In this document: piece by piece, positions 8,749-32,997 of the stretch | Layout of the letters: every line of letters starts with the position of its first letter | Position numbering within the stretch: the first letter of the stretch is position 1 | Assembly: GCF_002939305.1 (NCBI RefSeq) | Contig: NZ_MVDI01000001.1 | Span: 1 to 64,000, forward strand | DNA: 64,000 bases | From: Chroococcidiopsis sp. TS-821 | GTDB lineage: Bacteria; Cyanobacteriota; Cyanobacteriia; Cyanobacteriales; Chroococcidiopsidaceae | Direction of reading: 5' to 3' | Translations under genes and position numbers: made by a program | Notes under the pieces: generated by a model | The model's database searches: none | Told to the model about the DNA's origin: nothing | Seen by the model: only the letters and a program-made list of their open reading frames with translations

Positions 8749-8826
8749 TGACGCGCGATCGCACTCAGAACAAAACGCACTGTTGCTCTTACTGACAACT
8801 AAGTATCATTTTTACATAGAAAAGCA

Positions 8827-10312: not shown

Positions 10313-10393
10313 ATGCGTTTAACTATAAAATGTTTAGCTAATAGCCTAAACATTAAACTGTTAAGTTTTAGGATGGCTTCCCGTCGTGAATAA
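10313..10393 (+). CDS. Possible 26-aa leader peptide
   Basis: A 26-codon ORF starts at ATG 10313 with GGAG eight bases upstream, a better ribosome site than many genes here have. The peptide is basic (starts MRLTIKCLAN) and has no recognised relative. Its stop overlaps the GTG of the next tiny ORF by eight bases, which could allow coupled translation. It may be chance. Confidence 0.2.
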   Translation: MRLTIKCLANSLNIKLLSFRMASRRE

Positions 10394-10514
10394 AGCACTA
10401 GACACTAGAAACTGGTTGCAAGAAATCCGATGCCGAAATCGGGGAAGTATCTATTTGTTTGCTCCAATGGTGGACTTCAATGTCATGTCTGAAGTAGGTG
10501 ACACTCCACCATAA
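10386..10514 (+). CDS. Possible 42-aa small protein
   Basis: A 42-codon ORF from GTG 10386 to TAA 10512-10514, overlapping the previous tiny ORF. It reads VNKALDTRNWLQE near its start, is less AT-rich than the surrounding spacer, and has a balanced amino-acid composition. No family is recognised. Confidence 0.2.
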   Translation: MNKALDTRNWLQEIRCRNRGSIYLFAPMVDFNVMSEVGDTPP

Positions 10515-10769
10515 GTTAGACAAAGTCACTTAAAAATAATTTATGCAGTCGTTGACAAACCTCAGTTTATTAATTGGGGTATATCGATAGTCTTTAAGAA
10601 TAGCAACAAAATCAAATCTGAAATTTGAGCTTCAGTTTTTAGGTTTGAAGATTTTTGCTATTTTAATTGCGACCGCACAACTTTTATTTTAGATGCCTTT
10701 AAACAAATTCATTTTTGTTTTTTGTTAGAGGTGCTTGAAGGTTTTTGTATAACTTGATAATAGGTAGTT

Positions 10770-11516: not shown

Positions 11517-11519
11517 ATG

Positions 11520-11545
11520 ATTCAGTAAAACAACTGAATGTTTTT
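11520..11545 (+). terminator. Intrinsic terminator of the acyltransferase gene
   Basis: ATTCAGT (11520-11526) pairs with ACTGAAT (11533-11539), followed by GTTTTT. Confidence 0.7.
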
Positions 11546-11570
11546 CATCATCTTAAAAATATATAAAATG

Positions 11571-11597
11571 AATTCTCCTTCATAACGAAGGAGAATT
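11571..11597. terminator. Bidirectional terminator hairpin between convergent genes
   Basis: AATTCTCCTTC (11571-11581) pairs over 11 bases with GAAGGAGAATT (11587-11597) around a five-base loop. It is T-rich on the right (plus strand) and, on the other strand, on the left. It sits between the acyltransferase (+) and the WecG-like gene (-). Confidence 0.7.
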
Positions 11598-11643
11598 TTA
11601 ATTGTCAATAGATAGGCTTTCTTTGGCTATTCAGCGTTTTATC

Positions 11644-12402
11644 TTAATCTATACTTTGGTTAGGCATATTATATAACCTTAGTTTTTGTTTTAAAATTAG
11701 CCAGAAAAATGGTAAATCTTCGAGTAGATATCGCTTCCAAAGCCTTTGGGGCTCAACTAATAGTCTATAGAGCCATTCAAGTCCAGCATCACTCATCCAC
11801 TTTGGCGATCTTTTCACGGTACCAGCTTCAAAGTCAATTGTTGCTCCTACAGCAAGAAATATCTTGATATTCGGCAAGCGATCTTTATATTTTATAATCC
11901 ATTTTTCTTGCTTTGGCGCGCCCACTCCTACTGCTAAAACTGATGCACCAGATTGATTGATTATTTCAATAATTTCTGCACACTCTTGCTCGTCCTTTTC
12001 AAACCCAAAAGAAGGAGAATGAGCACCTATCACTATATTTCTACCAACCTTATTATTAATGCGCTTGGCGGCTCGCTGTGCTACTCCTTGTTTACCTCCT
12101 AAAAGAAAGATTTTGATGTTTGGATTATTTTTATGGTAGGTGTAGAAAGCTGGAAATAAGTCTGAACCTGAAATTTTCTCTTTAATAGGAGTTCCCAAGA
12201 ACCTTGAGGCATAGACCAGAATTTGACTGTCACAAACTTTATAGTCAGCCTGCAAATAAGTTTGCAGAAACTCGCGGTCATATTGCAGCTTAACCATGTG
12301 ATCTACATTTGGTGTAAAGACAACGCCTGATTGGAGTTGTTTGAGTAACTCTACTTTAGATAAGTTATCAAGTGAAATATTAAGGATTTTGACAAATTTC
12401 AT
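11644..12402 (-). CDS. WecG/TagA/CpsF-family glycosyltransferase
   Basis: Read from ATG 12402 (MKFVKILNISLDN) it is 252 residues, the family's usual length. An upstream in-frame ATG at 12498 would add 32 residues that do not look like the family. FTPNVDHMVKLQ holds the conserved TPN(x)xD motif, VGVGAPKQEKW is the central motif near 170, and VGATIDFEAGTVKRSP with the terminal Trp/Tyr-rich stretch is the C-terminal signature. These GT26 enzymes add N-acetylmannosamine-type sugars to undecaprenyl-PP-linked acceptors, an early step of surface glycan assembly. It is convergent with the preceding locus but surely of the same pathway type. Confidence 0.85.
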   Translation of the reverse strand: MKFVKILNISLDNLSKVELLKQLQSGVVFTPNVDHMVKLQYDREFLQTYLQADYKVCDSQILVYASRFLGTPIKEKISGSDLFPAFYTYHKNNPNIKIFLLGGKQGVAQRAAKRINNKVGRNIVIGAHSPSFGFEKDEQECAEIIEIINQSGASVLAVGVGAPKQEKWIIKYKDRLPNIKIFLAVGATIDFEAGTVKRSPKWMSDAGLEWLYRLLVEPQRLWKRYLLEDLPFFWLILKQKLRLYNMPNQSID

Positions 12403-12956
12403 TGTTCTACATGTAGGAAAATAATCAATAGCAAGTTCGTCGCAGGCTGAACTTTGGCTTTCCAAAAAAGGCACAAGATAGTTACCTGAGCTCTGCATTC
12501 AGTACATCTTTTTTAGAGAGCGGCGTAGATTTTCTATGTCTGCGAATACAATGCCTGTGCTTCTTAAAGCACAAACTTTTCTGCTTTACTGTAGATACAG
12601 TAAATTTACGTATTTTGATATCTATTGGTGAAATAGATACTAAATAGATTAATTGGTATTTTCGGGATATGCGGAGATATGCAGTTAAGGTTTATACGAT
12701 CTTTAAGATATGAGAAAGTTCAATGAAATTTACATAAAAAACGTCGAGTTGATAGTCAAAAAGTTATAGTAAAATTACGTAAATAATGATAAGTGAGTGT
12801 ATTGTTTTCTCAACCGTAAATGGTGTTTGTTCAGAGAAAATAGAGGTAGGGTAAACCGAATTGTTGCAGGGGGGCAATTTCTCTGTGTAAGATTACAGCG
12901 ATCGCACTTGATCTGCCTTTATGATCCTGAATGAAGAACCGATGAACTAAATCACC
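12403..12956. other. Divergent promoter region between the wecG-like gene and htpG
   Basis: About 550 bases with no other gene. A weak promoter-like TTGATA at 12749-12754 is followed by TAAAAT at 12770-12775 (15-base spacing). No CIRCE palindrome was found upstream of htpG, so HrcA control is not supported. A HIP1 octamer lies close to the htpG start. Confidence 0.4.
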
Positions 12957-17293: not shown

Positions 17294-20200
17294 ATGGTTA
17301 AGCGCAAATTTATTAAAATGCCTATTCGCATTTTGCAGAAATTCGTCAATTTTATACTCTTGACAAAACGAAAGCTGTATTGGCTGTTGCGTCGTTCTTC
17401 AAGCCGTCGCCGACGAAATTTGCAGAGTGGATTTGTGTTACCAACGACAGCAATGCTTTTGTTGGTTGTTACCTTAGTTACAGGCGCTATATTGACTCGT
17501 AGCTTAAATCGCACGACACAAGTAGTAGGAAACTATCAAGCAAAAGAAATATATAATGCGGCTTCTCCTGCGATAGATCGTGCCAAGGCGAAGTTAGAAG
17601 CATTATTTGCTGATACGCGCTTACCAAATGGAGTTCCAGGGCAAGCAGTTTTACAGAGTATGATGCTCAACGATGGTAGTAATGGAGTTGCCGTACAAAC
17701 AGATAGCAACGGTAAGGTAAATGATAAATATACTTTGCCAGGCGAGAAGCGTTTAGATATTAATGGTGATAAAAAACTTGATAATGCTTGGTCTTACCAA
17801 ATAGATAGTAATGGAGACGGTAAACTTGACGGTAAAGATTCCACAATTGCTTATTCGATAATTTTAGAATCTCCAGAGCAAGATAAGCTTGAAGATCAAA
17901 GCGACACTGCCATTAAAGATAAAGCGAAAAATCTTAAAACACGCAATGGTCCATTTAGTGCTACACAAGCTAACCAAGCTTGTCGTCAACTAGAAGCGAA
18001 TAGTGGTAGTACAGCGGTAGAGCAAGGCTGGTTTAATGTTAATGCTGCTACTTTGCGGAAGAACTTTCAAGTTAACGCGGTTGTTATCCCAGGAGAAAAT
18101 CAACGTGCAACTGCGGCTTTAGAATTTCAGCAAGATCGACAACTCGATCGCGGTAATAAGTGGGGTGGATGGTTTCGCGGCGATTTAGAAATTTTTCCAG
18201 GACCATCGTTCAACTGGAATGGCGCTTTGCACACCGAAGGTAGTTTGTTTGTCGGTGGTAATCAAGTTACTGCTTATCTTATCAGTTCGCCGAGTTCTTG
18301 CTTGTATACTCGCGATGCTTCGGAAATTACAGTTACTCAGGTTGTAAATCCAGAAAACAACGCAACAACATTTCAGGGACAAATTGTTAACGGTACAATC
18401 CGAGACAATAACTTCAATGGGTCTTCAGTTTTTCACTTGTTTAACGGTGCTGGTACTGCACCCATTACGAGTGGCAGCAATCCAAACGTTACTTTAAATG
18501 GGACTACACACTCAGTAGTAACTGGTGGTAATCGTACCCCAATTCAAATTTCACTCGATCCTATTGCTTTATATACACAAGATGAGTCAAAAGCTAGAAA
18601 CACCACAGATCCTACTAATACTTCTGTAAGGCGCAGTGCATGGAATACAAGTAGTTTTGTGGAGCATAGAAGAATTTTTAATCAACAAGAACCTAAACCT
18701 TATGTTGATGATACATACCGCGCGGATAATCGTTATGGACCAAGACCTAACTATGGTCGAGATACAAGGTTGACGATTCCTGTTGGTAAAAAAATAGGCG
18801 ATGCAATTGATAATACAATAGGTGCTGAGGCTTTTGACGATCTTACCAAAGACAATCCGAAAAGTAACAATCCAGAAGATTTAGGCTTAGATGGATACTG
18901 GGAACGCCGCGCCCGTCGGGAAGGGTTAAGGATAATTGTTGGGCAACGGTTAGAGTTAGCAAATCCTTTAGGTCAACCTACTACAAACATTACCCATGAA
19001 GCGCGTCAGCGTCGGGCTTTAAGAGATAATTTAGCAGCAGTACAAGCGTCGGCTATTTATCACTACAAATATCCTGATAGGAATATAAATGCTAATAGTC
19101 CAACCCCACATAGTTCTGGATACTTACCTGTAGCTTGTCTAGCAACTACGGCTCATCCTGGTACTGCTACAACGATTAATAACAGTACAACGTTTAACAC
19201 AGTTACTATTAACGGTAATTCTAGAATTAATACAGATTTTCTCACAGGTAATGGCACTAATGGCTGGGAGTTCAATCCACCAGCAGGAGTGACGACAGAT
19301 GCGGCGTTTGCAAATGCTATTGCAGCAGGACAACCTCTGAGAAAAGCATTAACTAATCTTGCCTATTTTGCTGGCGACCCTTTTGGTGCTTTTCCTGCTA
19401 GACAAGATACAACAGCCAGTCCAGCAGTCCCTTCGGCTGGGCGACAAATTCATCCGCATCCTGTTCTAACTCAGTGGGGTAATTTTTCTGAATTACGACG
19501 CGTCGTCGCTTTGCTAGATAGCGGTACGACCTATGCCAATCTTAGCCTTGCTGATAAAACTACATTGCATACCGCTTCCTGCATGATGGGAATGCTGGCG
19601 TATAACTTGCAAAATATCGAAGATGCTTACAGAGAAATTGCGGATGATACATCTGGGGCTACTAGCACGAATGCTTTGGGCGTGCAGTTATCTCAACTAA
19701 TGGATGGTGTTGCGAGTCCTGGAAATCCAGAAATAGGTAGACCAGCTGATGGTACAAATATTTGCACGAGTACAGGAGGAGCAAATTGCCCAAGTAATAC
19801 ATACAATCCTAGCTACTATGCCAACTTTACAGCAGAGGAATGGATTAATGCCTTAGATAACTCTCCTGGATTAGGTGCAAATAAAGCGGAACTACTTCGC
19901 AAAGCACGCATAATATTTGCCCGACAACAAATATTGCGCGATCGCACTTTTGGCTTTCAATTGAGTTCCAACGCTTTTCTTGGAGGGATAGGAGTAGGCA
20001 ATGGTTATAATGCTCAGACTGGTATATATACAATACAACATATAAACGCTGGTCAATTCTCTCCAGGTCAGCAATTTAGAGTAAGCTGCGATCCGAACTC
20101 GTTCCTTGTCAATGGTAGCGGCAACGCTAATGGATTAGAACGGGCAAGGCTGGGTTTAACAATGGCTTTTTGTTCGCAAGCCGAGCAGCCGAAGTATCCT

Positions 20201-21901
20201 TCTTTGTTTTACCTGTTTCCCGTATCAGAACACGATCATCTTGGTGTTGCTTCACCTACTGCACTAGCTGCTAATCCTAGGGCGACTGTAATTCAACCCA
20301 CAAGCGAACCTTACGTTGCCAATGCGTATATCTTTAATCCCAATCCTCTTGTGACTGACGACGTAAATCATAACCGCTTCTACAAAGTCATTGGTGATAC
20401 AAACGGTAATGGTATTGAGAATGGTACGGAAGATAGTATTGCTGCGATCGCGCTTCAGCCAAAAGCCCGAACTAATTGGCTACTTCCCAACACAACGACG
20501 ACTTCAGGTCGCATCAACATCATTAGAGATAACGGTACCTCTGTAGGAATTCCCTTCCTCGACAAAGGAATGTTCAACGGTCGGGAAATGATAAGCGTGC
20601 GGGTTTTAGATATTGATTTGGATCAATTACGTAGGAATACCATTAGAGGAGTGACCGATGATGCTTGGCTACCTAAGGGTGGAATTGTTTATGCCTTCCG
20701 CGAAGATGCTGTAAGAGAAGATGGTATCGCTAGACCCGCAGGACCTGCTAATAGCTTAATGAATGCTAATACACCGCAAGATCCACCAATTACTTCTGCA
20801 AATGGTATTACTACCAAACCAGTAGATTACTATGCCGATCCGGATCGTCGTCCTCATGGTTTCCGTCTGCGTAACGGAACTGATCTGCGGCGAGTGAATT
20901 CCTCTAACAACAGTTTTACTATTCCTGATGATGAAAATATTCGCGGTATATCCTTCATCTCCGACAACCCTGTTTATATTCAAGGTGACTTTAACTTACA
21001 TCAACTTGTTAATACAAACACAAGATTAGAAGAGTTTAGCCAACTGCTACAGGACAACTATAGTAATTTCTATTCCCGCAGCACGCTAGATGCTCGATTT
21101 GCCAGACCGAATACAGATACTTGGCGTCCTACTGAAATTTTGGCAGATGCAGTTACAATTCTTTCCAACAACTTCTGTGATGGCAGTATCGAAGATGGCT
21201 TTGTTACCGCTGGTACTAGTAGTGGTGCTACGGTTCCACTGGCGCAGTATGGTTGTGGTACTGGTAACGGACGTACTTCTTATCTCAACCAAAACCGTCC
21301 TAGAGATAGTCTTACTTCAACTCAGTATTGGCTGAGAGAGAACGACGATTCAACATCTCCTATTAGAGTTTCTCCTAACGGTAACCCAGAGTACTGCGAG
21401 GTTAATACTTCACCTTGTCCCAGTTCTAATCGTAGAGAGTACAACAGCACAAGATATTACCCATTTTCTGAGGCTAAGTCTCGCAACGACTCTAGTAACA
21501 ATATGCGCGTGAATGCCATTATCATCAGTGGCATTGTCCCTTCCCAAGCACAACAATCTTACGGTGGATTGCATAACTTCCCGCGATTTTTAGAAAACTG
21601 GAACGGAAGAAACCTTTATATTTCCGGTGCTTTCTTGCAGCTAAACTTTAGCACCTATGCAACAGGTCCCTTTGACCAAGATGCGTGGGAAACTAATCAA
21701 AATCCTCAAGCTGCTGAACTTATTCAATACTACAACGCACCTAATCGTCGTTGGGGTTATGACGTTGGTTTGCAATATGCGCCTGCGGGTCCTGTATCGC
21801 GGCGGTTTGTAACTGCAAGTGGTACGCGGAGTGAATTTTACCGCGAGTTGAAAATCGACGATCCTTATATTCAACAACTCCGCAACGCCGTGAAAAAATA
21901 A
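17294..21901 (+). CDS. hpsA: HpsA-family giant prepilin-like protein, copy 1
   Basis: ATG 17294 gives 1535 residues (a TTG five codons upstream is less likely). A long basic leader (about 46 residues, RRSSSRRRR) precedes a prepilin-like junction G46/F47 with FVLPTTAML and a hydrophobic helix to about 67. This helix has Thr, not Glu, at position +5. Two EF-hand-like acidic loops follow (about 155-163 and 171-182, DSNGDGKLDGKD), then a very large Asn/Thr-rich exported domain with scattered Cys. The end (NFPRFLENW, YATGPF, NRRWGYDV) matches copy 2. In Nostoc, HpsA belongs to the hormogonium polysaccharide secretion system with pseudopilins HpsB-D. The GspK-like features (large, no Glu5, calcium loops) suggest a pilus-tip subunit; that is inference. 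Confidence 0.85.
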   Translation: MVKRKFIKMPIRILQKFVNFILLTKRKLYWLLRRSSSRRRRNLQSGFVLPTTAMLLLVVTLVTGAILTRSLNRTTQVVGNYQAKEIYNAASPAIDRAKAKLEALFADTRLPNGVPGQAVLQSMMLNDGSNGVAVQTDSNGKVNDKYTLPGEKRLDINGDKKLDNAWSYQIDSNGDGKLDGKDSTIAYSIILESPEQDKLEDQSDTAIKDKAKNLKTRNGPFSATQANQACRQLEANSGSTAVEQGWFNVNAATLRKNFQVNAVVIPGENQRATAALEFQQDRQLDRGNKWGGWFRGDLEIFPGPSFNWNGALHTEGSLFVGGNQVTAYLISSPSSCLYTRDASEITVTQVVNPENNATTFQGQIVNGTIRDNNFNGSSVFHLFNGAGTAPITSGSNPNVTLNGTTHSVVTGGNRTPIQISLDPIALYTQDESKARNTTDPTNTSVRRSAWNTSSFVEHRRIFNQQEPKPYVDDTYRADNRYGPRPNYGRDTRLTIPVGKKIGDAIDNTIGAEAFDDLTKDNPKSNNPEDLGLDGYWERRARREGLRIIVGQRLELANPLGQPTTNITHEARQRRALRDNLAAVQASAIYHYKYPDRNINANSPTPHSSGYLPVACLATTAHPGTATTINNSTTFNTVTINGNSRINTDFLTGNGTNGWEFNPPAGVTTDAAFANAIAAGQPLRKALTNLAYFAGDPFGAFPARQDTTASPAVPSAGRQIHPHPVLTQWGNFSELRRVVALLDSGTTYANLSLADKTTLHTASCMMGMLAYNLQNIEDAYREIADDTSGATSTNALGVQLSQLMDGVASPGNPEIGRPADGTNICTSTGGANCPSNTYNPSYYANFTAEEWINALDNSPGLGANKAELLRKARIIFARQQILRDRTFGFQLSSNAFLGGIGVGNGYNAQTGIYTIQHINAGQFSPGQQFRVSCDPNSFLVNGSGNANGLERARLGLTMAFCSQAEQPKYPSLFYLFPVSEHDHLGVASPTALAANPRATVIQPTSEPYVANAYIFNPNPLVTDDVNHNRFYKVIGDTNGNGIENGTEDSIAAIALQPKARTNWLLPNTTTTSGRINIIRDNGTSVGIPFLDKGMFNGREMISVRVLDIDLDQLRRNTIRGVTDDAWLPKGGIVYAFREDAVREDGIARPAGPANSLMNANTPQDPPITSANGITTKPVDYYADPDRRPHGFRLRNGTDLRRVNSSNNSFTIPDDENIRGISFISDNPVYIQGDFNLHQLVNTNTRLEEFSQLLQDNYSNFYSRSTLDARFARPNTDTWRPTEILADAVTILSNNFCDGSIEDGFVTAGTSSGATVPLAQYGCGTGNGRTSYLNQNRPRDSLTSTQYWLRENDDSTSPIRVSPNGNPEYCEVNTSPCPSSNRREYNSTRYYPFSEAKSRNDSSNNMRVNAIIISGIVPSQAQQSYGGLHNFPRFLENWNGRNLYISGAFLQLNFSTYATGPFDQDAWETNQNPQAAELIQYYNAPNRRWGYDVGLQYAPAGPVSRRFVTASGTRSEFYRELKIDDPYIQQLRNAVKK

Positions 21902-21939
21902 CCATTCGAGTTAATCAAAAGTGAGCATAGGAAAGAAAA

Positions 21940-22659
21940 ATGCGATTGAGATTGTCTCAGTTCATGCGTCGTTCTTCAGATGAAGGACTCACCCTCATTG
22001 AATCGTTAGTTGCGATCGCCATTATTGGTATTGTCTTGGCGGCGATCGCCCCTCCTCTTCTCATCGCCGCAGCTACACGCGTGCAAAATCAAAGAACCGA
22101 ACAAGCAATGCAGATTGCTCACGGTGAAATTAACAGAATAAGACTCATCGTCGAACGCAGAGGAGAACAAGAACTCTATCAAGCAGGAGATCTACCACCC
22201 ATAAGCACTGCTAGTTCACTTCAGGATACGCCAGCACCCAAGAGAGATACAACCGGATTTACAAGCGATCGCAAGCAGTTAACTTCAACCAAAGGTTTAG
22301 CCATTTATGTTAATCGCGATGCGAAAGGTAATCCTCTTGATTGCAGACGCAATGTCAAAAATGAATGTATTCCTGATTTTGTCGTGCAACTCTTCCGCCA
22401 ACCAGGAATAACAGCAGAAGGAGTAGAAAATCCTAGTAATAGTTCTCCACCTCCTAATGCTTTTCGAATGGGAGTGCGAGTTTACGAATATCAAGCTTTT
22501 CTGAGTGGTAACTCTCCCCTAAGTACTCAACGAAATCCTTTAAACTTAACCTCACAAAATAATTTGCAACATCCTCTAGCTGTTGTATATACCACAGTGG
22601 CACGCAGCCAATCTGGTCTTTCTTTAGAGCAATACAGACAACTTTTGGATAAAAATTAA
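21940..22659 (+). CDS. hpsB: HpsB-like type IV pseudopilin, copy 1
   Basis: A 239-residue protein with a short leader and the prepilin peptidase site G16/L17 in DEGLTLIESLVAIAIIG. Glu is at +5 and the usual 20-residue hydrophobic helix follows. The globular part includes FVVQLFRQPG and FRMGVRVYEYQAF, which has a counterpart in copy 2 (LGVRVYRADAF). It starts 38 bases after hpsA and is surely co-transcribed. Processing by PilD and insertion into a pilus-like fibre are expected from the family. By position and size it resembles GspI-type minor pseudopilins. Confidence 0.85.
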   Translation: MRLRLSQFMRRSSDEGLTLIESLVAIAIIGIVLAAIAPPLLIAAATRVQNQRTEQAMQIAHGEINRIRLIVERRGEQELYQAGDLPPISTASSLQDTPAPKRDTTGFTSDRKQLTSTKGLAIYVNRDAKGNPLDCRRNVKNECIPDFVVQLFRQPGITAEGVENPSNSSPPPNAFRMGVRVYEYQAFLSGNSPLSTQRNPLNLTSQNNLQHPLAVVYTTVARSQSGLSLEQYRQLLDKN

Positions 22660-22691
22660 TATTTTTATATTTTGCCTATTAATTTAATCCT

Positions 22692-23696
22692 ATGTTTTCA
22701 TTTTTTGATAAATATCGAGTTAATTTTTTACAATATTTTTTTCGTAGAACCAAAACTAATGGTTTTACATTAATAGAACTGTTAGTATCTTCGGTTGTTG
22801 GTAGTATTGTTGTTTCAGCACTGTTAGGCTTAGTTGTTAACATACTAGAAACCGAACAACAAGATTTAGTCAAAAGTCAAATTCAGCAGGAAATGCAAGG
22901 GGCTTTAGACTACATTAGTGAAGACCTTAGAGAAGCTGTATACGTTTACTCTGGGGAATGTATTCAAGGTAAAGGTAGTACTAGCGATCCAGCTACTTTT
23001 TGTCCAGGTCTTGTTAACCATATTCCTATGTTTGATAAGAGCGTTCCTGTACTAGCTTTTTGGAAAGTAGAAGATTTACCTGAAGGATGCAAAGATACTA
23101 GAGGACAAGTCAACGATCCTTGTAAAGATTTCCGCATAGCTAATCGAACTTTTAGTTTAGTAGTTTATTACCTCAGACAAAATCAAGCAAGCGATACTAT
23201 TTGGCAAGGAAAAGCACGAATTACTCGTTACACTTTAAGTCAACTAAACTCAGATTCTCCTCCCAAGCCAAACAAGGGATACTTCAACCCAATACAAGCT
23301 GGTACCAGTTTTCGCTTTTGGCCCTATGCTCAAAATACTGGAGGTCAACTAGAAAATCAACAGAATTCAGATAATTTTCCTTTAGCTAATGGTGGTAACA
23401 ATCTTGCTTTAGTAGACTTTGTAGATGACACGCCTGATGCTGAAAATAACACAACCGAATGCCCTACTGGTTATGATTTAACACCTAATAATAAAACGCT
23501 GGAAGATAAGGGAATAGCAAGAGTTAGAAGTTTTTATGCTTGTGTGCGAGAGCAGCAAAATCAATATCCCGATGTCATTGTTTACCTCAGAGGTAATACT
23601 CACAGACGACAAGGAGGATACGGTAAAGCGGCACTTGCTGGTTTACAAACCCATGTTCTAGGTAGAGGAGTTGTAGATAAAAACCCTCCTCGCTAG
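22692..23696 (+). CDS. hpsC: HpsC-like type IV pseudopilin, copy 1
   Basis: A 334-residue protein with a 24-residue basic leader, then NGFTLIELLVSSVVGSIVV with cleavage at G24/F25 and Glu at +5. LQGALDYISEDLREAVY-like helical sequence follows, as in GspJ-type minor pseudopilins. The C-terminal FYACVREQ...VYLRGNT is shared with copy 2 (FYACVDS...VYLRGNA). Several Cys suggest disulfides outside the cytoplasm. It lies 32 bases after hpsB. Confidence 0.85.
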   Translation: MFSFFDKYRVNFLQYFFRRTKTNGFTLIELLVSSVVGSIVVSALLGLVVNILETEQQDLVKSQIQQEMQGALDYISEDLREAVYVYSGECIQGKGSTSDPATFCPGLVNHIPMFDKSVPVLAFWKVEDLPEGCKDTRGQVNDPCKDFRIANRTFSLVVYYLRQNQASDTIWQGKARITRYTLSQLNSDSPPKPNKGYFNPIQAGTSFRFWPYAQNTGGQLENQQNSDNFPLANGGNNLALVDFVDDTPDAENNTTECPTGYDLTPNNKTLEDKGIARVRSFYACVREQQNQYPDVIVYLRGNTHRRQGGYGKAALAGLQTHVLGRGVVDKNPPR

Positions 23697-23723
23697 TATC
23701 GAGATGAATTTAAATAATAAAGT

Positions 23724-24275
23724 ATGAAGAATAAAATAATCTTCAAAACACAAATAAGCTCAAATACAGGTTTTACGCTTATAGAAATATTAATTGTTGT
23801 TTTTATTCTTGGAGTTTTAGCAGCGATCGCCGGTCCAACTTGGTTAGAATTTGTGAATGCCCGTCGCCTCAACATAGCACAAGACCAAATCTATCAAACC
23901 ATCCGTACTGCGCAAAATAGAGCTAAACAAGAAAGACAAATTTGGCAAGCTAGCTTTCGCGAAAGAAACAGAAATGGTGTCATTAATTTAGAATGGGCAG
24001 TTCATCCTGCTGACATCGATGTCGATAATGATAATAACGATAGTAATGATTTAGTGAGTTGGAATAGCTTCGATCCAAATATTCGTTTTGGCACTGTAAC
24101 AAGCTTGCAATCTAAAAATAATGTAAGATTTATACAATTTAATCATAAAGGTCACGTCAATGGTTTGCTAAGACGCATAACAGTAAGCACGGAAAACAGT
24201 AATATGAAACGCTGTGTATTTGTCTCTACATTACTAGGTGCTTTACGTACAGCAAAAGACGCTAGTTGTTCGTAA
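23724..24275 (+). CDS. hpsD: HpsD-like / GspH-FimT-type pseudopilin, copy 1
   Basis: A 183-residue protein. A 16-residue leader ends at G16/F17 in NTGFTLIEILIVVFILGVLA, with Glu at +5. RRLNIAQDQIYQTIRTAQNRAKQ continues the N-terminal helix as in GspH/FimT minor pilins. The extreme C-terminus KRCVFVSTLLGALRT plus a final Cys matches copy 2 (RRCVAVRTLLGAMQT plus Cys), indicating a conserved terminal disulfide loop. It ends the first cassette. Confidence 0.85.
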   Translation: MKNKIIFKTQISSNTGFTLIEILIVVFILGVLAAIAGPTWLEFVNARRLNIAQDQIYQTIRTAQNRAKQERQIWQASFRERNRNGVINLEWAVHPADIDVDNDNNDSNDLVSWNSFDPNIRFGTVTSLQSKNNVRFIQFNHKGHVNGLLRRITVSTENSNMKRCVFVSTLLGALRTAKDASCS

Positions 24276-24443
24276 ACTAAGTTGTTATTTGCGCGTATAG
24301 AGTGCGATCGCAAATATACATTTGAAAATCATCTTCTCAAAATATCGACGTTGCAATAGTAAACTCAGGTATGCAAGCTGCGGCTCAAGATTGCACATTC
24401 CAATTAAATTAAAACTAAGTGTGAACTTCATCTAGCACACTCA

Positions 24444-25010
24444 TCAAGTTCTTGGCGTTGCGCTTGGAAATAAATCAGCAACCTTTAAAAGAAAATTTGG
24501 CAGCGCATGAGTACTGATTGTACTATCAACCCAAAAAGTCTGTGGTAAGCGATCGCGCTCAAAAACTGTAACTGCTTGCGCCTTAGTATCTACGATCCAA
24601 ATTTGATCTACCCCAGCAAGTAAATAATCAGTTGCCTTTTGTATCATTTCTCCAAACGCTTGACCAGGAGAAATAATCTCCACAACTAACTCTGGAATTC
24701 CTGGACAAGAACCCCCTGCATTCCAATCAGCTGAAATTCGACCCCATGAAATATATACCAACTCTAGTACGGGCGCCCAGTCAACCCCACGACGTTTGAG
24801 GACAGCAGTCCATTCTGGGTTAACTTCACCCAAATGACTTTGTTCGCACCAATCATCAATCAACCTCAGCAGTCGTTTTTGAACGCGGCTATGAGGAGTC
24901 GTTGGAGCCATTGTAGCAACAAGTTCTCCATCAACAAGTTAAAACCGCTCGTCACTTTCTGGCAAATTCAGAAACTCTTGAAGGCTGAGTTGATTTGCAG
25001 TGCGACTCAT
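24444..25010 (-). pseudogene. Uma2-family gene broken by one in-frame stop codon
   Basis: From ATG 25010 the minus strand reads MSRTANQLSLQEFLNLPESD, then ERF, stop (TAA, 24941-24939), then LVDGELVATMAP, staying in the same frame into the 155-codon open stretch that begins at ATG 24911. The stop falls exactly where Uma2 proteins have Glu in the R[YF]ELVDGE motif, so a single GAA-to-TAA change explains it. The rebuilt protein is 188 residues, the normal family length. It also has PELVVEIISPGQ (catalytic region) and IWIVDTKAQAVTVFE. A restart at 24911 would lack the N-terminal strand. It is inserted between the two hps cassettes in opposite orientation. Confidence 0.85.
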
Positions 25011-25434
25011 AGTTTGGTTCGTGTCATTATTGATACTAATCCAAAGAATGCGTTCGCGAATAAATTCGCAGGCTAAATAAACAATACCCACAAAGGTGGA
25101 CTTACTGGTAAAGCTCTTATTTTAGTGTACGAAGGTCTACTTTGGTTGGATAGTCCCGAAAGGCATCTGCAATTTATGCTGGAGTTCTGATGAGCATTGT
25201 AGTTAAAAACACACTCGCATAGCGAAGTTGCTTGAGTAAAAATACTATTTAAAGATTTTGTATAAATGCGATCGCGCTCACAGCAGTTCTTCGATCGACG
25301 CTACAATAACTGTGTTTTTTCAAGCAAGAATTTATACTGTTCGATGTAAAGCTCAACGTCCTAAGTCGCCTTCTCAACAAACTTGTTTTTAGATTCAGCG
25401 GTAGAATATTTCAGTTTGTGGCAAGGAAGCAGTT
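25011..25434. other. Spacer upstream of the second hps cassette
   Basis: No gene supported. It holds two decayed copies of the hairpin repeat seen at 15021, and a HIP1 site near 25268. The ribosome site of the second hpsA is GGAAG about six bases before ATG 25435. Confidence 0.5.
25086..25142. repeat. Two decayed copies of the AGTCCAC...GTGGACT repeat
   Basis: ACCCACAAAGGTGGACT (25086-25102) and AGTGTACGAAGGTCTACT (from 25124) match the reverse complement of the repeat at 15023-15040 (AGTCCACGAAGGTGGACT) with a few changes each. Confidence 0.55.
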
Positions 25435-28400
25435 ATGTCAACGGGTAAGCACAGCAATACCATCTTAAATCAATTAAAGCACAGGCAACCGCAAAGACAA
25501 TGGCTGCTACGGAATCTGATTGTTCTACGGCAGAATTCTTCTACATCAGGATTCGTCTTGCCAACTGTGGCGATGGTATCGTTGGTGATTGTGCTGCTGA
25601 CAACTGCGATTTTGGTGCGCTCCTTCGATCGATCGCGTACTGCAAGTAACCTAAGAGTGAGTGAAGCTGCACTCAATGCTGCAACTCCTGCACTCGATCG
25701 CGCTAGAGCAAAAATTGATGCTTTACTGCTCGACCAAACTTTACCACAACTTACGCCAACGGATGCCGAACTCGAAAACGCCCTTAACCGCAACAAGTAT
25801 ACTCTCGGCGATGAAACTCGGTTGAAGCTTGCGCAGGATAATAGTTCTGGCAACAATGATACCTTAACAACCGCTTGGAAATTTCCGGTTGATACCGACG
25901 GTAACGGTAAGTTTGATAGCTATACGCTTTATGGCATTTATTTTCGTAGTAATACCGCAGAAGAAGCGCGAAATCCTTTGCAAGCACGAACGCCACCAAT
26001 GCAAGGTGAAGCTTTGGGGAGAGAATGCGAAAATATCTTGAGAAATAGCGATCGCGCGTTAGGTGACTCTGGATGGTATCAATCTGGCGGAAAATTGAGT
26101 AAGAGTTTCTTTGTTTACACTGTAACTGTCCCCATTACAAATCCACCTATTGATAATAATTATGAAGCTTATCGCGGAAATCGCAGCTTTTATGCATTAG
26201 AATTCCAGCAAGATCGCAGTCGCACGCCAATCAGAAATTATGCAGCGCTGTTTCAAAACGACTTAGAAATTACTCCTGATTCGACGTTTCGGATAAATGG
26301 CAGAATTGCGACAAATGGTAATTTATTAGTTGGCAGTCAAAATAACGCAACGACGCAGTTTTATCAAGTTAGTAGTCAATATTCGTGTTTTTATAACGAA
26401 GAAAACGGCAAAATAACCGTCGGGGGAAATGTTGGATTAGGTAACGCAGCAGATACAAGCGATCGCACAGCCGTAAATATCGACTTATTCAATGGATTTG
26501 GCAACAATCCGATAACAGCTGCACTCGATCGCAACATTAAATCGACAACAACAACAGGTGGTGCGCAAGTTAGTTATAACGATACAGCTTACAATCATCG
26601 CCTTGCTTTAATGAAGCAAACAGCGTTGTCTTACCACCCAAATTTTGAGCGCCGCAACACGATTGATGAGATACCCCCTACCGTAGAAAGTGTTGCAGCT
26701 GTGAGACAGTATCCACCAGAAGTCAAAGCAGGATTTGCAGCAGCGATCGCAGATACGAATAATCAGCGCGGGAGTAGTTTGAATGCGTGGGATGTCTTAG
26801 GCGAACAAATCGAGACGTATTTGAGAAACTTAACGCGGCGCGTACCTTATGCAGAAGTGGCGACAAGCGATCGCCGTGCTGCTTTAGAGCGATACGATTT
26901 CGATGGTAATGGTATAGATACAAGTGTATTTCCTTCTGATACAATTGAACCACCGCTAGCGTGGCGCGAACCGACACCGATAAATACCCGATTAACGCTG
27001 AATCCGTATAACTTACCCCAGACGCAACCAGAAAAACAGCAGCAAGAAGGAAAAGAAAGCTACGTAGGCGATCGCATTGCGGTTGGTAATAATCTGCCAA
27101 CTTTCTGGAAAAAGACAGGGAATTTCTTTTTAGGCTTTAACGAAAAGCAATTATTTGATAACGGCGTCAACTGGAATAACCCCAATACTCAACCGCGTTA
27201 TCGCACAAGTCAAACCTTACCACTTCCTGACCGCAGAATCATTGAACGCAATGGATTTTGGGAAAATGCAGCTGCACAGCAACTTTCTACAACATTAACA
27301 GGCGCAGGTGGTTTGCGAATTATCACAGGTGCAGGAATTTACGATCGCGCCGCTTCTTTTTTACCGGAACCAAAATTAGAAGAAGGAGTCACCGAACCAC
27401 CGCTTTTTAGAACGCGTTCGTTTAGTGCTAATCGTAACATTGTGGTGTGGTCTGATGCGCTACCGATGACGGGGGATGCCCAAGAAAGTAAAAAAGGCGA
27501 TCTTCAGATGCGCGCTACCGCTGTCTATCATTACATAGATTCAAGCTACACTGGCACAGACTATGTCGAAAGAACTCCGACAGCGTGTATTAGTAGTTAC
27601 TACGATCCTACAACGGCAACGACTGCCAGGAATCAAGAAGATTTACCCGATGTTAGTGGTGTTATCAGTGGCGCGCAGCCTGCAAATGGCAGATCGAATA
27701 ATGGTGTCGTTTATCCGTCTCCGTATAATGATATCGGCGGTCGAGAAGCAGCGGTTAATCAATTTCGCGAACAACTTAATTTTCAAGCAAGCCTCATTTT
27801 TCCGAATGGGCGCGTTGTCAATCAACCATTGCGCGATGCTTTAGCGAAAATCGATGCGAATCAAACGCGATCGCTAGCGGATAATTCAGCTATAGATACA
27901 GCAATTTGTGCAATCAGAATTTTAGATAATAGTCTTTCTCCTGTTAGTAATCCGATTATTCCGCATGGCGCAATCAAAGAAGCTACTTTTCTAGACGCTA
28001 GAGAAATCAAAGCTATTGATAAAGATAATTCACCGAGTAACTACGACTTAGAACTAGAAAAACGCCAACCTTTAGAAATTCGCGTTACTGATATTGATTT
28101 AGGCTTACTTGCAAAAACAGAAATTGGTAACGAAAGAAATCCGCAAGAATATTTATTACCCAATAGTGGCATTATTTATGCAAGTCGTGACGATGCATTA
28201 GCCGATAGAAGCGATACCAGCATTGAAACTAAACTTCTTAGCCCGAATGATTTTATCCTCGATTCAACGCGTCGTCCAAATGGAATTCGGTTAATTAATG
28301 GTAGTAACTTATCGCGCGATGAAAACTACCGAGAAGTGGAAAAAGGTCTGACTTTTGTTACTAATTTACCTCTGTATATCCGAGGTGACTTCAATTTACA

Positions 28401-30639
28401 TCAACAGCCACTTACGCGAACTCCCACCGAGGAATTTTTAGAACGATTAACGGCAAATTGGACTAATTTTTACACTCGCAATACAAATTTTGATAGAAAC
28501 TTTGGCTGTAGAAAAGGACAGCCAGGCTGTGGTAATAACGGCGATCAATGGCGTCCGGCAACAATCATGTCTGATGCTGTTACAGTATTATCTAATAGTT
28601 TTGTTGATGGGTTTCGCAGTGATGGAGATTACGATTTAAATAATCATATCGGTAATTCAGTTGCTACACAACGCAAGAAAAACGGATTTGTTGATAATAG
28701 CTTTGCTACCAGTGTTGACTCACAAAGAAGTACTGATAGAAATTCTTATTTAAATAATGGTGTCACTCCGGTGCAGCGGCGAACTAACTTTCCTGAGTAC
28801 GTTATGGAAATTTGCCGTAAAATTCCAGTATCAGAATGTAAGCCTAACGATTGGGTAGTTGGGTATGAAGGTAACAAAGATGTCAAAGCTGCAAGTTTAC
28901 CTGATTTACCTGAAAACGCAAAAGCTGATAGGTTAATGGCAGGAACAACAGCAAGACCTGCACTCAATCCTGAAGATAGACGTTATCCTCGGCGAGTTGC
29001 GTTTCAACGTAATGAATTAGGGACGCTGGAACTCTCAGAATTTCAAAATAGCTTGACTCCCATACCTATAGGAGTTAATGCAGCAAATGAAGTTGATATG
29101 TTTCCATATGATACTTACAACACTAAGCGTCCGAAGTCAGTAAGTAATGCTTTATGGTTTAGAACAACAAGTAATGCTGAGCAACCTGATAGTGCGCCTA
29201 GTTATAACAGCGAACAACCTTTAGCATACACGCCAAATACGCAACTTGTCTCGCCATCAACGCCTGATATTGGTACTATTAGTTTGAATTTACCAGAAGA
29301 TAATCCGATTTCTGGCTACACAATTTGTACAACATCAGGTAAATACTCTAAGCAGTATAAGTTTGAAAGTGGAGAAACGCTGCAAGCATTACCTAATGAA
29401 TGCGGAACAGATGTGCGAAACCAAATTCAAACTGTATACGAAGCTTTAAGAAATTTGAACCCAAGTGCTGATACCAATGACGATCTTGTTAAGGCGACGC
29501 AACAGGGAAATTATCAACCCGGACAGGAGACAGTTATCACTGCTAACGATAGTAAACCTATCAATATTGTTGACTTAGACACTGAGAGAATACCTACTAA
29601 TAATGTAGCTGCAACAACAATTAGATTTGTTGGTTCTGAAGAGTCAATATTTATTATTAGAAACACAACAGGTCAATTACAATTTGGTTCAGAAGGCAAG
29701 GATCACTACGGAGTTAATATTGAGTTAGTTGGAGTGAGTCCTAATAATATTTTTTGGGTAATTAATGGAAATCTCACTACAAATCAAGTTGCTGATGATA
29801 AACGTCATTCCTTAGCAGGAACTTTCTTAAATAATGGTCTTGGTATTCCTGTATTAAAAAATGTAGAAATCAATGGTCGTTTACTCGGATTTCAAGATTT
29901 ACCGCAGAAAGGAGGAAATTTTACCGAAGGAAGCAAAATTACAGCAATAACATCTGACGAACAACCTCTATTAATTCCCGTTCTCCAAATTCATAGCCCT
30001 AATGGTTCTCCTGGCGGAAATACTTTAGATCGCGGAAGTGTAGATTTGCAAGATGCGTGGCTGCAAACCCCAGAAGATGATACGACTGTCAATGCTGTCT
30101 TTGTTTCAGGAAATAGCCCTAGTCGTCCAGGAGAAGAACCCGCAGGTTTACCAAATTTTGTCCGATTACTCGAAAATTGGCGAAATAGAACATTAAATAT
30201 TAAAGGTAGTTTTATTCAACTACACCGCAGTGCTTATGCGACAGCACCATTTGCACCAATCTTAGGCAGTAAATCGAGTGCAAATGACGGTAGTTTGAGC
30301 ATTTTTGACTACAGTTTTACACAGTATAGAACGAACAACGGTCAATTTACGGGTACGCTACCTTACTTTGCGACGCCAAACCGACAATGGAGTTTCGATG
30401 TTGCGCTTTTAGCGCAGTCACCAGATTTATTTGCACAAAAGTTTACGCAACCTTTGGCAAATGCGACTAACGAATTTGTTCGCGAAGTCAATCGCGACGA
30501 TCCTTGGATTGAAACGTTGCTATGTGCAGTAGAAGGTTCTGACAATAATTATACCTATGCGGTTGATGCAAGCGATCGCCCCCAGAGTTGTCCCGCGTTA
30601 AATGCTTACCAAGATATCCAAACTAACGTCACGCCATGA
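25435..30639 (+). CDS. hpsA: HpsA-family giant prepilin-like protein, copy 2
   Basis: This 1734-residue protein parallels copy 1. A 39-residue basic leader precedes SGFVLPTVAMVSLVIVLLT, with predicted cleavage G39/F40, Pro at +4 and Thr at +5 in place of Glu. LNAATPALDRARAKID matches NAASPAIDRAKAKLE of copy 1. Acidic calcium-type loops are visible at about 153-161 (DTDGNGKFD) and 488-495 (DFDGNGID). The C-terminus keeps LPNFVRLLENW, YATAPF, NRQWSFDV and a DDPWIE end. It is about 200 residues longer than copy 1, with extra Asn/Thr-rich sequence before the end. The stop overlaps the next start by four bases (ATGA), a sign of translational coupling. Confidence 0.85.
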   Translation: MSTGKHSNTILNQLKHRQPQRQWLLRNLIVLRQNSSTSGFVLPTVAMVSLVIVLLTTAILVRSFDRSRTASNLRVSEAALNAATPALDRARAKIDALLLDQTLPQLTPTDAELENALNRNKYTLGDETRLKLAQDNSSGNNDTLTTAWKFPVDTDGNGKFDSYTLYGIYFRSNTAEEARNPLQARTPPMQGEALGRECENILRNSDRALGDSGWYQSGGKLSKSFFVYTVTVPITNPPIDNNYEAYRGNRSFYALEFQQDRSRTPIRNYAALFQNDLEITPDSTFRINGRIATNGNLLVGSQNNATTQFYQVSSQYSCFYNEENGKITVGGNVGLGNAADTSDRTAVNIDLFNGFGNNPITAALDRNIKSTTTTGGAQVSYNDTAYNHRLALMKQTALSYHPNFERRNTIDEIPPTVESVAAVRQYPPEVKAGFAAAIADTNNQRGSSLNAWDVLGEQIETYLRNLTRRVPYAEVATSDRRAALERYDFDGNGIDTSVFPSDTIEPPLAWREPTPINTRLTLNPYNLPQTQPEKQQQEGKESYVGDRIAVGNNLPTFWKKTGNFFLGFNEKQLFDNGVNWNNPNTQPRYRTSQTLPLPDRRIIERNGFWENAAAQQLSTTLTGAGGLRIITGAGIYDRAASFLPEPKLEEGVTEPPLFRTRSFSANRNIVVWSDALPMTGDAQESKKGDLQMRATAVYHYIDSSYTGTDYVERTPTACISSYYDPTTATTARNQEDLPDVSGVISGAQPANGRSNNGVVYPSPYNDIGGREAAVNQFREQLNFQASLIFPNGRVVNQPLRDALAKIDANQTRSLADNSAIDTAICAIRILDNSLSPVSNPIIPHGAIKEATFLDAREIKAIDKDNSPSNYDLELEKRQPLEIRVTDIDLGLLAKTEIGNERNPQEYLLPNSGIIYASRDDALADRSDTSIETKLLSPNDFILDSTRRPNGIRLINGSNLSRDENYREVEKGLTFVTNLPLYIRGDFNLHQQPLTRTPTEEFLERLTANWTNFYTRNTNFDRNFGCRKGQPGCGNNGDQWRPATIMSDAVTVLSNSFVDGFRSDGDYDLNNHIGNSVATQRKKNGFVDNSFATSVDSQRSTDRNSYLNNGVTPVQRRTNFPEYVMEICRKIPVSECKPNDWVVGYEGNKDVKAASLPDLPENAKADRLMAGTTARPALNPEDRRYPRRVAFQRNELGTLELSEFQNSLTPIPIGVNAANEVDMFPYDTYNTKRPKSVSNALWFRTTSNAEQPDSAPSYNSEQPLAYTPNTQLVSPSTPDIGTISLNLPEDNPISGYTICTTSGKYSKQYKFESGETLQALPNECGTDVRNQIQTVYEALRNLNPSADTNDDLVKATQQGNYQPGQETVITANDSKPINIVDLDTERIPTNNVAATTIRFVGSEESIFIIRNTTGQLQFGSEGKDHYGVNIELVGVSPNNIFWVINGNLTTNQVADDKRHSLAGTFLNNGLGIPVLKNVEINGRLLGFQDLPQKGGNFTEGSKITAITSDEQPLLIPVLQIHSPNGSPGGNTLDRGSVDLQDAWLQTPEDDTTVNAVFVSGNSPSRPGEEPAGLPNFVRLLENWRNRTLNIKGSFIQLHRSAYATAPFAPILGSKSSANDGSLSIFDYSFTQYRTNNGQFTGTLPYFATPNRQWSFDVALLAQSPDLFAQKFTQPLANATNEFVREVNRDDPWIETLLCAVEGSDNNYTYAVDASDRPQSCPALNAYQDIQTNVTP

Positions 30640-31325
30640 TTTCTCGTTCACAAGGCTTTACTATTGTTGATGCTCTAGTCGCGATCGTCGTTGTTGGCAT
30701 TTTGATGAGTGCGATCGCACCTGTCATGGTACTTTCTGTCGGCAACCGCGTACAAGCCCGCCGAGTCGAACTTGCAACCCAAGCCGCAAAAACTTATCTT
30801 GATGGTATCCGAAACGGCACAATTCCACCACCGAATCATACCGTAGTCCTTAACGAAGTTGATACTAGCGCAACTCGCCAATTCAACGCCCAGCGCGTTA
30901 CTTTCGCAAATGCTGCGGTTCCACCTGCGAGTGGTTTAACAAATTGCACCCCCACAACACCTGATTATCCGTACTGTCAAAATTCTGCAAATCTGAGTTT
31001 GTACTGCATTGACTTTGATGCAGAAGCAGGTTGTAGCAGTAACAGCGTTCGCGATCTTGTTGTTCAAGCATTTCGTAGTGTTACACCTACGTCTACCGAT
31101 GCCACAAAAGGTTATTTATTAGGTGTGAGAGTTTATCGCGCTGATGCTTTTAGCGATAGTTTACCCCTCGTTAAAAGTGATGCGGATACCAGACGAACGC
31201 AAGCCACTTTTACCAGCGGGTTAGGCGATCGCAAAGCCCCATTACTCGAAATTACTACCGAAATTAGTACGACAGAAACCCGATTGCAAGATTTGTGCGA
31301 TCGCCTCGGTGGTTGTCAACTGTAG
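30636..31325 (+). CDS. hpsB: HpsB-like type IV pseudopilin, copy 2
   Basis: A 229-residue protein with a very short six- to seven-residue leader and the site SRSQGFTIVDALVAIVVVG (G7/F8). Position +5 is Asp instead of the near-universal Glu, and Ile3-Val4 precede it. The globular part keeps VQAFRSVTP and LGVRVYRADAF, matching copy 1. It overlaps hpsA copy 2 by four bases. The Asp keeps the charge but is rare and may change how the subunit docks in the fibre. Confidence 0.82.
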   Translation: MISRSQGFTIVDALVAIVVVGILMSAIAPVMVLSVGNRVQARRVELATQAAKTYLDGIRNGTIPPPNHTVVLNEVDTSATRQFNAQRVTFANAAVPPASGLTNCTPTTPDYPYCQNSANLSLYCIDFDAEAGCSSNSVRDLVVQAFRSVTPTSTDATKGYLLGVRVYRADAFSDSLPLVKSDADTRRTQATFTSGLGDRKAPLLEITTEISTTETRLQDLCDRLGGCQL

Positions 31326-31361
31326 TAGTAATACGAATGGCAACAAGAGGATAGCTATGCC

Positions 31362-32324
31362 ATGATGAACTCACTTCAACTGCTTCGGTACATCTACACA
31401 AACCGTTTTGACTCGCAATCAAAAGGTGGCTTTACCTTAATTGAACTGCTAGTAGGTATTGTCCTAGCAGGATTAGTCATCACGCCCTTAATGAATTTTA
31501 TGCTCAATATTTTAACAACACAGCGACAAGAGGAAGCCAAAGCTAATACCGATCAAGAATTGCAATCAACGATTAATTATATTACGCAAGATTTAAGGCA
31601 GGCAATTTATATTTATGATGCTGATGGTTTAAATAATACTTCAACCCATACTCAGCCAGGAATTAAAGATCAAATTCCACCGTTAGCACCTGTTCCAGGA
31701 TGCGATGCTAGTACAAATTGTACTCCTATCCTTGTGTTTTGGAAACGCGAGTTTAAACCCGAAATTTTATCTCCCTGTACAAGCGATTCAATCAATTGTT
31801 TAGCTGATACTAAACTAGATGATACTTTTGTTTATTCGTTAGTTGCATATTACTTAATTGAAAATCCAGCAAATACAACTGAATCTAATACGGCGCGGAT
31901 CGCCAGATTTCAAATTAATGATGGCATCAAAGATTCAAGAAATCCTGATAATTATATTGAGCCGCCAGATGATGGTTTTCAATCTTTTAGTTTAAGAACC
32001 CCTGGATTAACGATTAAAGATAAGATGAATCGCTGGCAAAAAGCTAACGAAAACTACACAAATAGCGTTACTACACTTGTAGATTTTATTGATACAAGCG
32101 CTAGCACAAAACAGCAAAATTGTCCAGCCAATATGCAACAAATTCCTGCTGTCGCCAGTGGTTTTTACGCTTGCGTAGACTCAATTAATACAACAGCACA
32201 AGTTTATTTAAGAGGAAATGCGATCGCGCGAATTAGAAATGATGCAACGTGCGATCCTACTTCTGTATATTGCCCTAGTGTCAGCGTTCAAGTTCAAGGA
32301 AGCGGATTACTCAGCCGTAACTAA
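31362..32324 (+). CDS. hpsC: HpsC-like type IV pseudopilin, copy 2
   Basis: A 320-residue protein with a 23-residue leader, then GGFTLIELLVGIVLAGLVI with cleavage at G23/F24 and Glu at +5. QSTINYITQDLRQAIYIYD corresponds to the copy-1 helix. GFYACVDS and VYLRGNA near the end are shared with copy 1. At least eight Cys lie after the helix. AGAGG sits about 12 bases before ATG 31362. Confidence 0.83.
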   Translation: MMNSLQLLRYIYTNRFDSQSKGGFTLIELLVGIVLAGLVITPLMNFMLNILTTQRQEEAKANTDQELQSTINYITQDLRQAIYIYDADGLNNTSTHTQPGIKDQIPPLAPVPGCDASTNCTPILVFWKREFKPEILSPCTSDSINCLADTKLDDTFVYSLVAYYLIENPANTTESNTARIARFQINDGIKDSRNPDNYIEPPDDGFQSFSLRTPGLTIKDKMNRWQKANENYTNSVTTLVDFIDTSASTKQQNCPANMQQIPAVASGFYACVDSINTTAQVYLRGNAIARIRNDATCDPTSVYCPSVSVQVQGSGLLSRN

Positions 32325-32349
32325 TCATATATAAAGCTTACTACTTATT

Positions 32350-32387
32350 GGTAACTAGATACAACCGATTACCAATTACCTATTACC
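32350..32387. repeat. GGTAACTAG...ATTACC dispersed element, copy A
   Basis: GGTAACTAG at 32350-32358 is followed by ATTACCAATTACCTATTACC. The same order of blocks occurs at 53393-53446. The ends are partly complementary (GGTAA/TTACC). Confidence 0.45.
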
Positions 32388-32403
32388 TTTCTACAATTAA
32401 CAT

Positions 32404-32997
32404 ATGTCAAATGAACAATTAGATTCTGGATTTACATTAATCGAAGTTATTGTTGTTACCTTAGTCATCGGAATTTTATCAGCGATCGCCGTACCTTCTT
32501 GGTTAGGCTTTGTGAATCGTCAACGGATAAATACAGTAAACGAATCGATTCTCCGTGCTTTACAAACCGCGCAGCAAGAAGCTAGAAAGCAAAAAATTAG
32601 CTACAGCGTCAGTTTTAGAACTAACAATCAAATTCCTCAAATTGCCATCCATCCTAAAGGAACGACACCTAGTAATACAGATTGGAAAACCCTAGGTGAA
32701 GATTTAGGAATTAACCCACAACAAATTTTGTTAGGAACTAATTTTAACGATCAAAGTGTTGCCACTACGGCGATCGCTTATACAGCTAATACAACACAAA
32801 CAATTAGCTTTAATTTTAAAGGCAATTTAACCGAAGAAGCAAAATTTGCAAACGACAAAGGTTTAATTGTAACAGTAGCTCAACGTCGTAACAATTCCAC
32901 AACTCCCGTTGAGGGAACAAGGCGATGTGTTGCCGTCAGAACTCTTCTTGGTGCAATGCAAACAGGTAGTGAAGAGCAATGCAATCCTAGTGGCTAA
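32404..32997 (+). CDS. hpsD: HpsD-like / GspH-FimT-type pseudopilin, copy 2
   Basis: A 197-residue protein with a nine-residue leader and LDSGFTLIEVIVVTLVIGI, cleaved at G9/F10 with Glu at +5. NRQRINTVNESILRALQTAQQEARKQK matches the copy-1 helix, and the C-terminal RRCVAVRTLLGAMQT with a last Cys matches copy 1. It closes the second cassette. The 79-base gap before it carries a dispersed repeat, so the cassette may be less tightly spaced than in copy 1. Confidence 0.85.
   Translation: MSNEQLDSGFTLIEVIVVTLVIGILSAIAVPSWLGFVNRQRINTVNESILRALQTAQQEARKQKISYSVSFRTNNQIPQIAIHPKGTTPSNTDWKTLGEDLGINPQQILLGTNFNDQSVATTAIAYTANTTQTISFNFKGNLTEEAKFANDKGLIVTVAQRRNNSTTPVEGTRRCVAVRTLLGAMQTGSEEQCNPSG

Follow-up and report, generated by a model that had tools for sequence, protein, structure and literature searches.

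Minor pilins form a tip complex that is capped by a subunit lacking the glutamate at position 5 (Glu5; PMC10191384). Pilins of the GspK family are large and devoid of Glu5, a property restricted to just one of the four or five minor pilins (PMC5207764), and XcpX binds Ca2+ (PMC6211770). Glu5 is dispensable for pilin processing (PMC4471445) and is not required in the first subunit, as exemplified by TcpB (PMC5207764). A tip location has also been proposed for ComZ of Thermus thermophilus, which has a glycine in place of Glu5 and combines a GspK-like pilin domain with a large β-solenoid (PMC6561018). PilA of Streptococcus sanguinis, which carries a proline at position 4 (Pro4) and no Glu5, is processed by PilD and has been modelled as the first subunit at the tip (PMC9934059); the combination of Pro4 without Glu5 is therefore already known. 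In cyanobacteria, Synechocystis possesses a pilA9-pilA10-pilA11-slr2018 operon (PMC5924778), and a 2025 review points out the difficulty of deciding which of the cyanobacterial minor pilins make up the tip complex (PMC12288463).

The hps locus is needed for gliding and slime in filamentous cyanobacteria. In N. punctiforme, production of the polysaccharide HPS depends on pilB and pilQ and motility requires HPS, while its export route is unsettled (PMC12288463). The literature assigns HpsA itself no known function or describes it as a hypothetical membrane protein, and a literature search made outside the founding hps papers found none proposing a role as capping pilin. The analysis of two HpsA proteins of Chroococcidiopsis sp. 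TS-821 presented here makes it probable that both are K/X-type minor pilins of giant size and modular build, each acting as the first subunit of an H-I-J-K set and occupying the tip.

Organization of the two hpsABCD sets

The window, that is, the whole 64,000-nt stretch of TS-821 DNA analysed, contains two hpsABCD sets, in which each hpsA is followed downstream by three small genes for pilin-like proteins, all in the orientation of hpsA:

17294..21901, plus strand: hpsA1, 1535 aa, divergent HpsA-type putative giant prepilin; NCBIfam NF038301, 690 bits, above cut-off
21940..22659, plus strand: hpsB1, I/PilV-type minor pilin; GLTLIES, Glu5; NF038303, 8.6e-23; PilV and GspI models weaker
22692..23696, plus strand: hpsC1, J/PilW-type; GFTLIEL, Glu5; NF038304, 3.6e-50
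23724..24275, plus strand: hpsD1, H/FimU-type; GFTLIEI, Glu5; GspH model 3.3e-8, N_methyl
25435..30639, plus strand: hpsA2, 1734 aa, canonical HpsA; NF038301, 1744 bits
30636..31325, plus strand: hpsB2, I/PilV-type, overlapping the hpsA2 stop; Asp at +5 (GFTIVDALV); NF038303, 294 bits
31362..32324, plus strand: hpsC2, J/PilW-type; GFTLIEL, Glu5; NF038304, 332 bits
32404..32997, plus strand: hpsD2, H/FimU-type; GFTLIEV, Glu5; GspH model 7e-10

Both HpsA proteins exceed the 400-bit cut-off of NF038301, and the difference between their scores designates HpsA1 as a divergent paralogue and HpsA2 as the canonical form. The matches of HpsB1 to NF038303 and of HpsC1 to NF038304 fall under the model cut-offs. 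According to NCBIfam models, HpsD1 and HpsD2 are GspH-like, HpsC is also GspJ-like and HpsB is PilV/GspI-like. The published GspK signature places the gene at the 3′ end of its cluster, whereas hpsA is the first gene of each set. The window closely resembles Gloeocapsopsis crepidinum, at 85% identity between the HpsAs, with which HpsB2 has its Asp+5 in common; HpsB2 is missed by the prepilin model. Upstream, positions 932-12498 hold a polysaccharide cluster that comprises a GNVR chain-length-like protein, GH5, Wzy, three GT2, a Wzx-type flippase, a hexapeptide transferase and a WecG-type protein.

A prepilin-type site without Glu5

The sequence-only reading had recorded that both HpsA proteins read GFVLPT, with Pro at +4 and Thr at +5 in place of Glu, and both open reading frames and the motif were indeed found:

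17429..17446, plus strand: HpsA1 prepilin-type site G|FVLPT, Pro+4 and Thr+5, no Glu5; predicted cut after base 17431
25549..25566, plus strand: HpsA2 prepilin-type site G|FVLPT; predicted cut after base 25551

The arrangement is that of a class III signal, a basic leader ending in Gly followed by about 20 hydrophobic residues. Its conservation was assessed in 71 HpsAs, consisting of the window proteins and those from 386 cyanobacterial genomes, with a site-finder in which the bonuses for P4 and E5 were equal. G-1, F+1 and P+4 are present in 71/71 and L+3 in 70/71, and position +5 is occupied by T in 67 sequences, M in two, L in one and V in one. When the loci of a second collection were added, giving 145 distinct cyanobacterial HpsAs, G-1 was again invariant (145/145) and no sequence had an acidic residue at +5 (0/145; T in 141, M in two, otherwise L or V). 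As this larger set was filtered on P4, its P+4 count was discarded, and the conservation of P+4 is taken from the 71 sequences and from an independent alignment of 32 HpsAs, in which G39, F40 and P43 (HpsA2 numbering) are invariant and T44 is present at 90% or more.

The partner pilins HpsB, HpsC and HpsD have an acidic +5 residue in 299 of 299 cases (E in 296; D in three, one of them HpsB2), counted with no bonus for Glu; a first count of 337/337 was discarded because its score favoured Glu, and this recount replaces it. HpsA is the sole member without an acidic +5 in each A-B-C-D set. The sequence-only reading took Glu5 to be normally needed for assembly; a first subunit such as TcpB can do without it (PMC5207764). 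The window HpsAs match neither the N_methyl nor the TIGR02532 prepilin model, and show no match above cut-off to Pfam T2SSK (PF03934) or PilX_N (PF14341); the T2SSK matches of the TS-821 genome lie outside the window. The genome encodes one A24 prepilin peptidase.

An unusually long basic leader

Both sites are preceded by long leaders:

17294..17431, plus strand: HpsA1 leader MVKRKFIKMPIRILQKFVNFILLTKRKLYWLLRRSSSRRRRNLQSG, 46 aa, basic; ATG at 17294; WLLR at 17381-17392
25435..25551, plus strand: HpsA2 leader MSTGKHSNTILNQLKHRQPQRQWLLRNLIVLRQNSSTSG, 39 aa; ATG at 25435; WLLR at 25501-25512

The lengths of 46 and 39 residues given by the sequence-only reading, as well as its description of the leaders as unusually long and basic, are confirmed, and long leaders are usual in the family. 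The distance from ATG to site is usually 50 (49-51 in 92 of the 140 HpsAs with a scored ATG start), the mean net charge is near +12, and a WLLR-like motif occurs in 99/145 leaders, mostly at -19. Pilin leader length varies (PMC10191384); the two window leaders, like the usual length of 50 in the family, are outside the 6-26 residues given for type IV pilins (PMC4471445). No ATG is found within 25 codons of the site in 120/145 HpsAs. Over 23 independent pairs, selected on the similarity of their leaders, a choice that slightly depresses pN, pN/pS in the leader is 0.27. Judged from these substitution patterns, the leader evolves as protein and under purifying selection.

Relationship with PilX-like and Slr2018-type proteins

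A cyanobacterial PilX-like family of 440-540 aa starts with GFVLPL or GFALPL (Pro4 in 12/15, Glu5 in 0/15). Its helix α1 can be aligned with that of HpsA by ungapped hhalign comparison (E 3e-11, Prob 97.2 with 3 sequences; E 1.4e-9, Prob 96.4 with 15 sequences), against which HpsB, HpsC and HpsD score far lower than HpsA. DUF7305 is found in 13/15 members, and individual members match PilX_N at 5e-4 and, for GspK, NF037980 at 0.0025, so that the family bridges HpsA to PilX and GspK. In one locus (L201), the PilX-like gene adjoins PilV/FimU/PilW-like genes. Despite the α1 match, the frequent Pro4 and the constant lack of Glu5, PilX-like proteins differ from HpsA in that they are three times smaller, have their own operon and accompany either HpsA or the Slr2018 type. 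They coexist with HpsA in 13/386 genomes; in G064, G022, G074 and G231 (loci L218, L236, L215 and L237), genomes that belong to the same order, a PilX-like Pro4 gene lies no more than a few kb from hpsA.

Unicellular cyanobacteria contain proteins of 780-940 aa that we call Slr2018 (PilA12) type, a label given for an operon layout and size matching the Synechocystis operon and not for comparison with the named Slr2018 sequence. All 10 members match NF038301, weakly. In most loci examined their gene ends a pilin set ordered H, V, W, X, and the start is G|YVLV or similar, with no Glu5. The profiles of HpsA and of the Slr2018 type align over the DLEI...GNL region (hhalign Prob 99.9, E 4e-33) and at the C terminus (Prob 98.8, E 7e-17), while the direct match of the N-terminal parts is weak (Prob 59). 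These profile comparisons establish the Slr2018-type proteins as homologues of HpsA. The two share the C-terminal region, the order of motifs and the lack of Glu5, and in both sets one non-Glu5 protein accompanies Glu5-type pilins. They differ in size (780-940 aa versus about 1500), and the Slr2018 type has a start without Pro4, a leader of about 26-35 aa and a gene that comes last. Among the 386 genomes, HpsA is present in 94 (E below about 1e-48), the full Slr2018 type in 13 and both in none; this non-co-occurrence has p = 0.025 by simple draw, a value that shared ancestry weakens further.

The HpsA body

Mature HpsAs span 1327-3102 aa (median 1569), and HpsA is by far the largest subunit of its set. 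GspK is about five times smaller than HpsA. The following features were located in the bodies of the two proteins:

17804..17830, plus strand: HpsA1 EF-hand-like loop DSNGDGKLD, possible Ca2+ site
18182..18193, plus strand: HpsA1 DLEI motif, beginning of the region common to Slr2018-type proteins
20972..20995, plus strand: HpsA1 VYIQGDFN motif, collinear with the Slr2018 type
21575..21850, plus strand: HpsA1 conserved C-terminal region, NFPRFLENW ... WGYDV ... FYREL
25552..26277, plus strand: HpsA2 N-terminal domain as modelled, with helices 2-32 and 38-59 and antiparallel strands 89-95, 103-113, 123-130, 181-194 and 215-224
25891..25917, plus strand: HpsA2 EF-hand-like loop DTDGNGKFD
26260..26334, plus strand: HpsA2 DLEI...GRIATNGNLLVG, within the Slr2018-type-matched region (hhalign 99.9%, E 4e-33)
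29632..29889, plus strand: HpsA2 insertion with weak ice-binding (β-solenoid) resemblance (PF11999, E=0.15, below cut-off)
30154..30489, plus strand: HpsA2 conserved C-terminal region, NFVRLLENW ... WSFDV ... FVREV, collinear with the Slr2018 type (profile 98.8%, E 7e-17)

The EF-hand-like DxDxNGxxD loop is found in the N-terminal domain of 116/145 sequences, compared with 0.24% of shuffles. The HpsA2 insertion has low alignment occupancy and is poorly shared with other HpsAs.

AlphaFold2 modelling of residues 1-242 of mature HpsA2 (pLDDT 76, pTM 0.67) and an AlphaFold model of residues 1-1111 (pLDDT 77, pTM 0.76) both predict a long broken helix followed by antiparallel strands, an arrangement that is pilin-like in outline. 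A Foldseek search of the PDB, run without a positive control, gave no match at E < 0.001 for either model (best E 0.34 for 1-1111 and 0.078 for 1-242), and GspK, ComZ and pilins are absent among the matches listed. This outcome leaves the GspK-like fold that the sequence-only reading had envisaged unconfirmed, neither proving nor refuting it. Searching PDB sequences with the HpsA and Slr2018-type profiles returned nothing relevant.

HpsA as a candidate capping subunit

HpsA resembles GspK, XcpX and PulK in being large, in lacking Glu5 and in occurring once per set together with H, I and J pilins; to the Ca2+ binding of XcpX would correspond the conserved Ca-type loop of HpsA, as deduced from its sequence. 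It is unlike GspK in having neither a Pfam T2SSK match nor a PDB fold match. ComZ offers the likeness of a single atypical pilin bearing a large extra body, although no sequence or fold match links the two in the PDB profile search or with Foldseek. S. sanguinis PilA shares Pro4 without Glu5, but is a 17-kDa, non-modular protein with an 8-residue leader and an I-type fold. The assignment of the GspK role to HpsA is therefore only partly supported. In its favour, indirectly, are the H/I/J-like partners, among which HpsA is the largest and the sole member lacking Glu5, the α1 match to PilX/GspK-like proteins and the K position that the Slr2018-type homologue occupies in its operon; context, conservation and α1 homology make the idea likely. 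Against it are the absence of a significant PDB match for the HpsA models, the first position of hpsA, the missing T2SSK and PilX_N matches and a relation to PilX/ComZ-type pilins that is at least as good as that to GspK. Overall, HpsA conforms to the published rules for tip subunits in everything except gene position.

In the mechanism that we favour, HpsA would be targeted through a class III (prepilin) signal whose basic leader is exceptionally long. PilD would cut after the Gly, and helix α1 would keep the protein in the inner membrane, where HpsA may assemble with HpsB (I), HpsC (J) and HpsD (H) into a priming complex (HpsD-C-B-A). Without an acidic +5 residue, HpsA could serve as the first subunit only, which would place it at the pilus or pseudopilus tip and expose its body of 1300-3100 residues outside, probably in contact with polysaccharide, surface or secretin. 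Since the export route of HPS is unsettled, the contact with polysaccharide is an inference.

HpsA might instead be cleaved like a pilin and serve as an accessory, modular adhesin-type minor pilin, another K-type subunit priming the pilus. Large grafted domains are indeed carried by non-K pilins, S. sanguinis PilB and PilC (PMC9934059), and a PilX-like family accompanies HpsA in 13 of the 386 genomes; nevertheless PilC has Glu5, which HpsA never has, and the search of the TS-821 genome found no PilX-like or Slr2018-type set besides the hps sets. Besides the two hps sets, the pilin model retrieved from this genome three PilA-like pilins and a single isolated small pilin. No further H-I-J set was detected, with the proviso that divergent pilins can be missed, as HpsB2 was. 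We regard the accessory role as unlikely.

A further possibility, to which we give a low probability, is that HpsA is never processed and that its leader and hydrophobic stretch form an N-in signal anchor, tethering to the inner membrane a periplasmic factor for polysaccharide export or assembly. The invariance of G-1, F+1 and P+4 across diverse HpsAs would be unnecessary for an anchor, and the constant company of H/I/J pilins and the α1 match to PilX-like proteins also speak against this reading, even though a leader of about 50 residues exceeds the 6-26 range (PMC4471445), no prepilin model recognises HpsA, its AlphaFold models have no pilin match and an earlier paper termed it a hypothetical membrane protein. 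Conservation of the site in 145 sequences and the pN/pS of the leader leave practically no room for GFVLPT being a meaningless product of chance or of a misplaced start.

Taking HpsA and the Slr2018 type as non-Glu5 capping subunits makes the question of the cyanobacterial tip complex directly testable. If this is true, HpsA would rank among the largest subunits of pilin type proposed and would be relevant to the link between pili and polysaccharide secretion. More speculatively, and with considerable doubt, cyanobacteria might use interchangeable tip complexes distinguished chiefly by how large their single K-type subunit is, with the Slr2018 type in unicellular lines and, in filamentous lines and their relatives, HpsA, which reaches 3100 residues; HpsA would then couple pilus cycling to polysaccharide, and the long WLLR leader would provide cytoplasmic control over release of the first subunit.

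The span 17294-32997 corresponds to a tandem duplication of the entire hpsABCD set, the first copy of which is divergent, and tandem HpsA copies also occur in genomes G005 and G048 (L034). The biggest HpsAs seen have 2812 and 3158 aa (L048 and L050).
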